From Candidatus Gastranaerophilales bacterium (GTDB lineage: Bacteria > Cyanobacteriota > Vampirovibrionia > Gastranaerophilales > Gastranaerophilaceae), in contig CANRGC010000010.1 of NCBI GenBank assembly GCA_947630045.1, positions 1 through 64,000 on the forward strand: 64,000 bases of DNA, read 5' to 3'. Of the stretch, positions 1-15,386 are shown piece by piece. Below the pieces are notes generated by a model. It ran no database searches. It saw nothing but the letters and a program-made list of their open reading frames with translations, and had not been told where the DNA came from. Each line of letters starts with the position of its first letter. Within the stretch, counting starts at the first letter, position 1. The translations under genes and the position numbers were made by a program.

Positions 1-1
1 G

Positions 2-75
2 CGCGCCTGGAGGGATTCGAACCCCCGACCTTTTGGTTCGTAGCCAAACACTCTATCCAGCTGAGCTACAGGCGC
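2..75 (-). tRNA. tRNA-Arg (anticodon ACG)
   Basis: On the minus strand a complete cloverleaf can be drawn: acceptor stem GCGCCTG/CAGGCGC, D-arm with AGCTCAGCTGG, anticodon loop CTACGAA (anticodon ACG, Arg) and a T-loop TTCGAAT. The discriminator base is G and no CCA is encoded. An ACG anticodon normally needs A34-to-inosine editing to read CGU, CGC and CGA. The gene lies at the window edge. Its upstream side carries two tandem repeats that copy its first ~19 bases. Confidence 0.95.
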
Positions 76-292
76 AATGTTATTCAGTTTTAAATTTTTG
101 CTTTCACCTCAGCCGGATAGAGTTTTAATATATATTTTCGTTGAAATTTTGCTCTCGCAAAATGTTCAACAGCCAGCTGAGCTACAGGCGCAATGTTATT
201 CAGTTTTAAATTTTTGCTTTCACCTCAGCCGGATAGAGTTTTAATATATATTTTCGTTGAAATTTTGCTCTCGCAAAATGTTCAACAGCCAG
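61..292. repeat. Two tandem 116-bp repeats carrying tRNA 5'-half copies
   Basis: Bases 61-176 and 177-292 are near-identical direct repeats with a period of 116 bp. A third partial start lies at 293-300. Each unit holds the tRNA-Arg 5' end up to the D-loop (57-75, 173-191 and a diverged copy at 289-307), an AT-rich spacer, a D-arm-like segment in the opposite orientation (CTCAGCCGGATAGAGT near 109-124), and a hairpin (TTGAAATTTTGC against GCAAAATGTTCAA, loop TCTC, 141-169). The function is unknown. It could be a tRNA-derived mobile or duplicated element, or an assembly effect. Confidence 0.85.
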
Positions 293-378
293 CTGAGCTA
301 AGGGCACAAACATTTTAGACAAAATAAAAGTCTATAAAAGTTCAAGACAATTTTACATTATAAAAGGAAATAATCAAC

Positions 379-4192: not shown

Positions 4193-6772
4193 TTATTCTC
4201 CTTCTTTTATATACCCTTTAACTTCCCACTGAATTGTGTTTATTCCGTCTATGGAATATCCGTATACATCAAAAGATGTTGTTTTAAAATTAAAAGGCTC
4301 ATTGGTGTGCGCCCCAAATACTCCGCTTCTGTAACTTCCCGTTACCCCTCTTGAGTTAGCACACAAATAATTTGTATCTTTCATTTCTTTTAAAAGATTT
4401 ACCGTATAGACAGTGTCAGAATTTGTAGTAAGCCTTCCCCACTGTTCACAATATCCGTCAGACCAAATTCTATAACCTGAAGTACCATTAGTATATGTTT
4501 CCTTTACATATGCCTTGCATTCGGTTTTTGAAATTTTATTGTTTAATTCCTCTAAAACTTCGCCACAATCAATGGCTTCAATGTTTTCCAAGGCGTTTGC
4601 AACTTTGAAATACAATTGCGCTTTATCAGATTTTAAACCTGATAAGTCTGCAACTATTCCCGATAAATCAGGGTTTGTTGTTAAGCCTGCAAGGTTATTT
4701 GTCGGAAGCGAATTTGCGCCCGATATTACTTGTCCTATATCTTGTCCTAAAAGCGAAGTATCATGCCAAGGTACAATTACGGCATTCCCGTTATAATTCC
4801 CAATTGCGATAGGATATTCCGTTGTGCCGTTTGAAAAAGTTAATGACTTTCCGTTACCGATAACGGGAACTTTGCCCGAACTTACGGGCGAAAAACTTAA
4901 TTTTAAAGGCGCTCTAAAAGTTTGTTCATCTTCATTAACAATCCAATATTCGGAATAATCAGTGTCAGAAAGTTTTCCACTTTCTTTAACAACCTTAAGC
5001 CCTTCTCCGTATTTTGTTTCTTCCCCGTTTACAATCTTTAAAAGTTCGCTGTAGGCGCTCTCATAAATATCAGCTTTAAGCGTACTTCCCGCCTTTATCC
5101 ATGAAGGGTGATTTGGTTTAAAATCAAAATAGATAGGGGTAAACATAGGCAAAGTGTCATTGGTTGATGATGTAAGCTCAATAGCTTCACTTCTTGCTTT
5201 TTTAGTTGATGTATTTCCCACAACCATATATACAATAACTCCGACAGAGGGCGGTTGAACTGTTTTATTTGCCCCATATATCGGGTTGCTTTGTGAAGCT
5301 AAAGTTGTGCTGATTTCACTTTTATTATTTGCAACGGAAGCGCTTCCGCCCGCAACTTGAATTGATGCCCAAGTGTATGCGTCAGTTACTTTGTGGTCAT
5401 GGTCAGGCAGCCCCGCTTCGATATATTTACCCGCATTTTTGTTGTTTTGGAAAAAGTAATCATTCCTTGGCAATAATATTCTTTCTTGTGCGGTGTCTAT
5501 CCCGTAATACCAAGCAACGCCCGTATCTTGATAGATTTTGTCGACTTTTTCTTTATCTTTGATGTCATAGAACCTGTGACCGTTTAGATTTTTTGTTATC
5601 TCAACAGATTTAACACCTTGCCAGAAGATTTCATCACCAATTTCTATATAACTTTGATTTAAGTTAATTTCACCGTTGGTAAAAGGTCTGTTAAAATCAA
5701 GTCCCAAGCTTGGAGTAAAAGAAGCTGCTTTATACGTATCTTCTTGAGTTTGAGAAGTTATATCAATTTCTTTAGTAATGTAGTTTACCCATTCATCTTT
5801 AGAAATACTTTCTGATATATTAGCCACGTCAACACTATATATTGCTTTTGCAATGTTTGTACTATCTTCTTCATTGATACTTTTATACTTATAGCTTATT
5901 TTTATTAAATATTCTTTTTCTAATTCAAGGGTATTTGTTGAAGTTATACTATTTGCAATATTCCAGCTTGTTGAATTACCCGAAACATAAAATGCAAGAG
6001 TTCTTGTTTGTAAAAAATTTAAAACAATACCATATTTTTGTACCGAAGCACCCGAGCCAAATATCGCTAAACTGCTTGAGACACTTGAAGGGGTTTTAAT
6101 TTTTAATACGATTTCCCAATTTTTTTGTGCACTTTCAAGTTCAAATGTTTTGTTTATTGAAGCATAGTTATTTGTGCTAAAGTTTGAAAGTATACCTTCT
6201 TTATCGGTAACTTCAGCGATTGTTTCAACGTTTGATGAAATATACAGATTTTCTTTTGTATTATTTTCATCTTTGAATTCATCTATACATTTTTCATAAA
6301 AATCAGGGTAACCGTAGCGCCCGTCTTGTGCTTCTTTGTATACGAATTCCCCTAATCTCTCTAAACCCTCTTTTTCCTCAAAAGCTAAGATATGGTCTTT
6401 TTGAATGAGGTCAAAGAGGTTTGAACCGCCTGAATTATTAAAATCAACCGCAGCCCAAAACTCACTGTTTTCAAGGTTGTTCCCTTTATTTTCATCTTTT
6501 AAGCTTTCAAAAATTATTTTTTTGCCGTCAAGAACTCCTAAAACCCATTCTCCCAATTCAAATTTTTCTTCGTGGTTATACTTTCTTATACCGCAGCCTG
6601 CAATTCCTTCTTCAATACGGTTCATATTTTCAGCATTTACAGGCGTTCCGAGATTTTTAACCTCTCCGAAACTTTCAATCAGTTTTGTTGAGCCGTCATC
6701 ATTTTTTTCAAATTCATATGTTTTTTGGCGTTCAACATCCTGATCTTCCCAGTGTTTTTTTACATAAGCCAT
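4193..6772 (-). CDS. Phage-like tail fibre / receptor-binding protein
   Basis: 859 residues. The N-terminus has the GTPVNAENMNRIEEGI motif common in tail proteins of Firmicutes-type phages. A segment around 190-400 looks like a LamG/concanavalin-type beta sandwich (ASINKTFEL, then WEIVLKIKTP and YIEIGDEIFWQGV). Next comes a collar-like region with GLPDHDHKV and the conserved VQPPSVGVIVYMVVGN, and finally a tip domain (GYRIWSDGYCEQWGR). The start at 6772 is chosen over 6826 because AAAGGAGT lies just upstream. No capsid, portal, integrase or lysis genes are nearby, so this is an orphan module. It may be a prophage remnant or a domesticated adhesin. Confidence 0.88.
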   Translation of the reverse strand: MAYVKKHWEDQDVERQKTYEFEKNDDGSTKLIESFGEVKNLGTPVNAENMNRIEEGIAGCGIRKYNHEEKFELGEWVLGVLDGKKIIFESLKDENKGNNLENSEFWAAVDFNNSGGSNLFDLIQKDHILAFEEKEGLERLGEFVYKEAQDGRYGYPDFYEKCIDEFKDENNTKENLYISSNVETIAEVTDKEGILSNFSTNNYASINKTFELESAQKNWEIVLKIKTPSSVSSSLAIFGSGASVQKYGIVLNFLQTRTLAFYVSGNSTSWNIANSITSTNTLELEKEYLIKISYKYKSINEEDSTNIAKAIYSVDVANISESISKDEWVNYITKEIDITSQTQEDTYKAASFTPSLGLDFNRPFTNGEINLNQSYIEIGDEIFWQGVKSVEITKNLNGHRFYDIKDKEKVDKIYQDTGVAWYYGIDTAQERILLPRNDYFFQNNKNAGKYIEAGLPDHDHKVTDAYTWASIQVAGGSASVANNKSEISTTLASQSNPIYGANKTVQPPSVGVIVYMVVGNTSTKKARSEAIELTSSTNDTLPMFTPIYFDFKPNHPSWIKAGSTLKADIYESAYSELLKIVNGEETKYGEGLKVVKESGKLSDTDYSEYWIVNEDEQTFRAPLKLSFSPVSSGKVPVIGNGKSLTFSNGTTEYPIAIGNYNGNAVIVPWHDTSLLGQDIGQVISGANSLPTNNLAGLTTNPDLSGIVADLSGLKSDKAQLYFKVANALENIEAIDCGEVLEELNNKISKTECKAYVKETYTNGTSGYRIWSDGYCEQWGRLTTNSDTVYTVNLLKEMKDTNYLCANSRGVTGSYRSGVFGAHTNEPFNFKTTSFDVYGYSIDGINTIQWEVKGYIKEGE

Positions 6773-6868
6773 ATATAAAACTCCTTTCTTTCCAGTTCTC
6801 ATTTTAACTTGGGCGAATTTCGGCACTTAATTTCAAGTCAAAGCGCTTTATACACCTTTATTTTGGAG

Positions 6869-14972: not shown

Positions 14973-15386
14973 CTATTTTTCTTCCGTTTTTTCTTTGACA
15001 GGCTCATCTTTTTTCGGCTCATCGTAATTTGGAATAGGAGCCTCAAGCACTTTTTGAGTTTTTTCTTCAACCTTTTTAGCGCCGCTGTTTAATTTTTTTG
15101 CGGTAAATCTTTTTGTCTTGTTTGCGCCTTTTTTAATTGCTTTTCCGGTTTTATTAGCCCCTTTTTTAATTGCATCACCTGTTTTATCAGCGCCTTTTTT
15201 CAAAACTTCTCCCGTTTTATCGGCGCCCTTCTTTAAAGCTTCGCCGGTTTTATCCGCAAAAGCGTCAAGATTTGACTCTTTTTTTTCTTCAAAAGTTTGA
15301 ATAGGGCTTGCTTCATCTGCAAACACGGCGCCTGAGATAAAGAGCCCGAAAATTGATACAAAAATAACAGCTAAAATATTTTTCAT
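14973..15386 (-). CDS. Secreted LEA-like protein with 11-residue repeats
   Basis: 137 residues with a signal peptide ending AVFA. The centre has five consecutive 11-residue units of the form ADKTGEALKKG (~43-97), visible at DNA level as ~33-bp repeats. This is the periodicity of group-3 LEA and apolipoprotein-like amphipathic helices. The tail is Lys/Glu/Pro-rich. LEA-like proteins bind membranes or act as desiccation and aggregation protectants, and export suggests a periplasmic envelope role here. It follows the transporter gene by 9 bases with its own AAGGAG, so it is probably co-transcribed. Confidence 0.8.
   Translation of the reverse strand: MKNILAVIFVSIFGLFISGAVFADEASPIQTFEEKKESNLDAFADKTGEALKKGADKTGEVLKKGADKTGDAIKKGANKTGKAIKKGANKTKRFTAKKLNSGAKKVEEKTQKVLEAPIPNYDEPKKDEPVKEKTEEK

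Follow-up and report, generated by a model that had tools for sequence, protein, structure and literature searches.

Transfer RNA genes are common integration sites, and tandem inversion duplications, in which two direct copies are separated by an inverted piece, are unstable structures that can be amplified. The tRNA-linked repeats (TLRs) of E. coli, described in 1978 (Egan and Landy 1978 and Rudd 1999, both as cited in PMC8144298), contain 18-19 bp of the 3' end of the upstream tRNA; PMC8144298 gives them no known function and does not explain their origin. In Salmonella, tandem inversion duplications (Kugelberg et al. 2010, as cited in PMC3857721) are large selected amplifications. A literature search confined to papers outside subscription found no paper on repeats at the 5' side of tRNA genes.

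Here, we describe an array of repeats upstream of tRNA-Arg(ACG) in a MAG of Candidatus Gastranaerophilales, an uncultured gut bacterium (GCA_947630045.1). The window is the whole stretch of DNA that was analysed, i.e. the first 64,000 nt of contig CANRGC010000010.1. The array is real and widespread, and the description that suits it best is a 5'-side variant of the tRNA-linked repeats. Like the TLR/RtT family (including the 178-bp repeats of tyrT and RF00391), it lies beside a tRNA gene and consists of one to several units, and each unit holds a tRNA end of that length together with a hairpin. However, the array repeats the 5' end of a downstream tRNA, i.e. its first 19 nt, and it lies between promoter and tRNA, whereas in TLRs it is the 3' end that recurs, on the 3' side; it is also found in another phylum and has another sequence. 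The RF00391 model found no match at E<=1 in the window array or in the 3' units described below; the E. coli control was matched four times, with 133-138 bits. Because the 3'-end signature and the Rfam model were both tested and neither was found, the array was not filed as RtT.

Architecture of the array

The array adjoins the only tRNA-Arg(ACG) gene in the 1.70-Mb MAG. Its features, in window coordinates, are the following.

1-75, minus: tRNA-Arg(ACG), the resident gene of the units (ARAGORN; Rfam RF00005, 68.7 bits)
75-57, minus: nt 1-19 of tRNA-Arg
76-107, minus: leader abutting tRNA-Arg, bearing the AAAACTGAATA motif and duplicated in each unit (from the sequence)
191 to 76, minus: unit 2, tRNA-proximal, 116 bp, with the copy of nt 1-19, hairpin, inverted D arm and leader
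173-191, minus: unit 2 copy of tRNA nt 1-19, 19/19 identical
140-170, minus: unit 2 hairpin, 13 bp with a conserved 1-nt bulge
108-123, minus: unit 2 inverted copy of the tRNA D arm, ACTCTATCCGGCTGAG, complementary to tRNA nt 11-29
307 to 192, minus: unit 1, promoter-proximal, its first 19 nt being the decayed outermost copy of the tRNA start
289-307, minus: outermost, diverged copy of tRNA nt 1-19 (21-mer 86% identical)
256-286, minus: unit 1 hairpin, identical to 140-170
224-239, minus: unit 1 inverted D arm, identical to 108-123
223-192, minus: unit 1 leader
108-173 (unit 2) and 224-289 (unit 1): matches of model R1, one per unit
350-377, minus: promoter-like site (TTGATT, 16 nt, TAAAAT) upstream of both units
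379-2061, minus: gene for a TPR-repeat protein, the upstream neighbour (ORF)

Read along the minus strand, the decayed start (307-289) is followed by the hairpin, the inverted D arm, the leader and the perfect start (191-173), and a second round (172-76) leads into the tRNA. Thus, the array comprises two full units and tRNA-Arg itself, and the most distal copy, at 289-307, is probably the original tRNA 5' half. The general plan of a unit is a leader with the copy of tRNA nt 1-19, a hairpin, an inverted D arm (about nt 11-28) and again the leader. The direct repeats at 57-172 and 173-288 are 100% identical over 116 bp (TRF score 488), as are unit 2 and unit 1 when compared in register, and the 21-mer of 57-77 occurs again at 173-193 (100%) and 289-309 (86%). 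The preliminary description had reported tandem 116-bp repeats with copies of the tRNA-Arg start, each followed by the same hairpin and an inverted segment resembling the D arm. Both observations were borne out, by two identical units plus the diverged copy, with hairpins at 286-256 and 170-140 and inverted segments at 239-224 and 123-108.

The complementarity of ACTCTATCCGGCTGAG to the tRNA reached a score of 15, compared with a maximum of 10 for shuffled sequences, and the array strand folds far more stably than shuffled sequences (z = -6.8). The approximately 97 bp between the direct copies contain no ORF. Searching the whole window with Rfam yielded two tRNAs and nothing else.

The TPR-protein gene is a conserved neighbour within the genus (L002, L005, L009, L011, L273-L275) and was used as an anchor for the within-genus comparison. 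The number of units at this Arg site varied: it was empty in three genomes (G002, G005, G006) and contained one to three units in five others (G000, G001, G004, G007, G008). Just after the TPR-protein gene, a promoter-like site (TTGATT, 16-17 nt, TAAAAT or TAGAAT) is conserved in position in most species of the genus that were compared, whether or not they have units. As this conserved promoter precedes the units and the tRNA follows them, transcription of the units within the leader of the pre-tRNA is probable. The earlier proposal of co-transcription with the tRNA is therefore supported by position and by a genus-conserved promoter that precedes the outermost copy.

Units at other tRNA genes and in other genomes

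A DNA search yielded matches in 50 of 145 relatives, although many weak ones were tRNA starts only. The same plan in unrelated sequence was read at genes for tRNA-Arg (acg, tct, cct, ccg), Lys, Phe, Pro and Leu, and 5' units were also found upstream of tRNA-Val; the hosts were many Gastranaerophilales and a few CPR and Firmicutes genomes. An exact pattern scan of 84,980 species returned 30 contigs, mostly of Gastranaerophilales and including some chance matches. Beyond this order, real units were present at tRNA-Val in Gracilibacteria and at tRNA-Arg in Oscillospiraceae and Peregrinibacteria, the last with two in tandem. With a covariance model built for Arg-type units, matches were obtained in 38 of the order's 286 genomes; these belong to 15 of 50 genera, and as many as five copies stand in tandem. 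The phage records among the matches listed were matched in the tRNA alone; the pattern matches in viral contigs, as well as L127 and L131, were chance matches within ordinary tRNA genes. Another pattern match (L139) had no tRNA nearby.

A search of the present genome for further units, which the preliminary description had recommended, was productive on both sides of tRNA genes. When the copied end and the inverted arm were both required, 3 of 40 tRNAs were positive on the 5' side and 2 of 37 on the 3' side; a control with swapped tRNAs gave no match in 312 comparisons. Weaker units, judged by eye, precede Pro-cgg, Lys-ctt, Leu-gag and Ala-tgc. The leader motif AAAACTGAATA was found within 70 nt of 7 of the 41 tRNAs, and six of these seven have units or unit remnants. 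A second site for the tRNA-Arg 3' half was not found in this genome. As a separate observation, a leader motif like TTTGAAAACTGAATA stands mainly before unit-bearing tRNAs of this genome (window 76-107, L048, L056, L059, L104, L079); we take it to resemble a block in the rRNA spacers of Firmicutes.

In total, 46 units at tRNA-Arg, Lys, Phe, Pro, Leu, Thr and Val genes were compared; they had been collected by window similarity or by the Arg-type pattern, so that the survey favours Arg-like D arms, and units that are related do not count as independent. The piece that follows the hairpin was complementary to the unit's own tRNA, typically to nt 11-28. The mean score was 14.5 with the own tRNA, compared with 10.4 for the best of 100 shuffles and 10.1 with other tRNAs, and the best shuffle was exceeded in 39 of the 46 units. 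In 44 of 46 cases, the inverted arm fitted the full tRNA better than the unit's own copy (7.3), and in 30 of 33 cases it spanned the end of the copied tRNA start. Because it extends beyond the copied nt 1-19, the inverted arm was made from a complete tRNA; and because it fits the own tRNA and reaches past the copy, the unit was derived from the host tRNA and not imported with a fixed sequence. A Lys unit (L019) contains sense nt 24-33 beside antisense nt 34-5, a fold-back junction.

The hairpins of 18 homologous units at Arg genes have 13 pairs and a constant one-base bulge, and 99.1% of the cells are paired. Two-sided changes occurred in 8 of the 13 pairs, a result obtained in 0 of 500 shuffles. 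This covariation indicates either that the structure is under constraint or that one arm has been corrected from the other. The hairpin family is common to several tRNA-Arg isoacceptors in the 15 genera, and similar inserts occur in one genome (G033) at three tRNA genes, Arg-cct, Arg-ccg and Phe. Together, the 46 units of the same plan at other tRNA genes, the negative result with swapped tRNAs and the 38 genomes that match the unit model exclude chance.

Mirror units on the 3' side

In the same genome, tandem units that copy the tRNA 3' end follow tRNA-Pro(tgg), tRNA-Met and tRNA-Leu(tag), and an inverted T arm is clear in those of tRNA-Pro and tRNA-Met. The 3' units have the anatomy of the tyrT repeats (TLR/RtT) of E. 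coli, in which an inverted T arm, hairpins and a renewed copy of the last 19 nt come after tRNA-Tyr, three times over; the inverted T arm of tyrT scores 16 within 22 nt. For the 5S repeat rrB of E. coli, an inverted arm was rejected, as its score was below the shuffle maximum. The individual 3' units are located at L082:1-400 (C19) for tRNA-Pro(tgg), with at least four copies of the 3' end, at L094 (C14) for Met and at L098 (C29) for Leu. In addition, mosaic palindromic modules 3' of a tRNA-Met (L065:1-300, C1) were seen at about fifteen places, often at contig ends.

The lysV gene of E. coli also has a tRNA-linked unit, with alleles of zero, one and two copies that differ by exact units (L285, L268, L286, L287). 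As the duplicated 61 bp take in the locus-specific flank with its terminator, the lysV copy was made in place. The unit at E. coli lysQ carries the lysV flank, which suggests that units may spread between paralogues. The E. coli repeat core is present in 4,248 of 5,426 genomes, at a median of 4 places. Thus, the TLRs of E. coli also resemble the array in that they contain the neighbouring tRNA arm in inverted form and have alleles of different copy number. The comparison of array and TLRs suggests that both were copied from the adjoining gene.

Origin of the units and possible effects on tRNA maturation

On balance, we favour, if only by a little, an origin of the array as a 5'-side tRNA-linked repeat that was born from its resident gene by strand switching, expanded by recombination and is transcribed in the leader. 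The first unit would arise in place when replication or repair switches strands at a foldable tRNA arm, giving a miniature tandem inversion duplication with two direct copies flanking an inverted piece. The surviving events would be those that left one intact, transcribed tRNA, so that the tRNA adjacent to the array would stay perfect while outer copies decay; that the outermost copy is indeed the decayed one supports this view. Identical direct repeats would then expand and contract through unequal recombination, units could reach paralogous tRNA genes by recombination, and transcription would include them in the pre-tRNA leader. The TLR/RtT repeats of E. coli could have come from the same process acting on the 3' side.

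Birth from the resident gene, and not from an element with fixed ends, is indicated because the copies include the local flank and the inverted arms fit the local tRNA. Later expansion and loss by recombination is indicated by the identical tandem copies and by the presence of zero to three units within one genus. The preliminary description had proposed a tRNA-associated element that was duplicated by recombination, and these data, together with the lysV alleles of E. coli, speak for that proposal. Like the tandem inversion duplications of Salmonella, the array has two direct copies separated by an inverted piece; in contrast to those, its units are about 100 bp long and anchored to tRNA arms. 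None of the allele pairs catches the first event of a strand-switch birth, and empty alleles could be losses.

The occurrence of one hairpin family across tRNA-Arg isoacceptors and the inserts at three tRNAs of G033 would also suit a mobile insert and thus argue against birth in place. Under this alternative, a non-autonomous, site-specific mobile mini-element with a recombinase-recognised hairpin enters the D loop (5' side) or the T loop (3' side), and the tRNA end is restored. Arg copies indeed end at about nt 19, the point that the inverted arm usually spans, and because different tRNA genes have hairpin families in common, we regard such an insert as unlikely but credible. However, the duplicated sequence includes leader or terminator flank, the inverted arm matches the particular tRNA that hosts it, and the unit has no ORF. 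Furthermore, the position of the copy end and the centre of the inverted arm correlate only weakly and not significantly (r 0.28, P 0.12). The array has tandem units, conserved hairpins and an adjoining fixed anchor in common with integron attC arrays, but it has no cassette genes or integrase and its anchor is a tRNA gene. The integron integrase model TIGR02249 gave no hit above the cut-off in 58 genomes, in which only weaker matches to tyrosine recombinases were found. With the REP/RAYT palindromes it shares short imperfect hairpins with a bulge, but the units are tied to tRNA ends and not dispersed. The Y1 transposase (PF01797) was found in 9 of 29 genomes and is absent from the array's own genome. 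A broader version, which we hold to be doubtful, is that the tRNA genes of bacteria harbour a widespread class of self-propagating hairpin elements, which enter at the D or the T loop, reconstitute the interrupted tRNA end and bring with them an inverted copy of the host arm, with TLRs as the 3' members and the array as a 5' member, the 5' members acting in cis on maturation.

The strong covariation of the hairpin could reflect selection for function, but self-templated hairpin correction could also give it. It is one of the observations that would suit a selected regulatory leader, in which the inverted arm sequesters the nascent tRNA 5' half and the upstream copy competes for it, tuning maturation. 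The units lie downstream of a promoter, and in the predicted minimum-energy RNA folds the tRNA 5' half pairs with the unit in all 43 units examined. The gain over separate folding has a median of 11.6 kcal/mol, although these are equilibrium folds that ignore co-transcriptional folding. However, such pairing is expected from any inverted copy, whether functional or not, and sister species have no unit. In addition, 3' mirror units can sit past intrinsic terminators, as at lysV of E. coli, where little transcription would be expected. Selection as a regulatory leader is therefore improbable as the explanation of the array. Even so, it is plausible that the copies would compete for tRNA processing, as had been suggested earlier, and whether a unit may affect the maturation of an essential tRNA is a fair question in the light of the modelled folds.

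We think it very improbable that the copies are fossil attachment sites left by larger integrative elements for which tRNA-Arg was the target. Such elements often integrate at tRNA genes, and direct repeats of a tRNA end are reminiscent of attL and attR. Nevertheless, it is the 5' end that is copied, inverted arms would be unexpected and the unit length is fairly uniform. Between the direct repeats, neither an element with an integrase nor cargo is present, but only the short ORF-free stretch.

An assembly artefact is hardly conceivable: the contig starts at the 3' end of tRNA-Arg and tRNAs are enriched at contig ends (10 of 42 in the MAG lie within 400 bp of one, 0.7 expected), but homologous arrays lie inside contigs of many independent assemblies (e.g. 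G091:C2, at 80.8 kb of 227 kb, and G008:C1, at 126.8 kb of 174 kb) and the same plan exists on the 3' side in finished E. coli genomes. As so many homologous arrays sit deep inside contigs, it is the arrays that cause the contig breaks and not vice versa; the concern that the repeats might occur at assembly breaks only can thus be set aside.

With a mirror image on the 5' side, an inverted arm in 5' and 3' units alike and exact zero-, one- and two-copy alleles among E. coli genomes, the origin of TLRs becomes testable. If the 5' units affect maturation, they would represent an unusual cis control of an essential tRNA, with a copy number that can change quickly.

Several minor observations were made in addition. 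Eight contigs of the MAG (C1, C6, C9, C10, C19, C20, C26, C29) end at or near tRNA genes and C3 ends at tRNA-Phe, several contigs terminating exactly at the mature tRNA end. In the window, about four 33-bp repeats with a 66-bp period at 15124-15254 appear coding-like (roughly ADKTGEAIKKG on the minus strand), and an 877-aa ORF at 4193-6826 on the minus strand, which adjoins tRNA-Thr, resembles a phage tail or collar protein.
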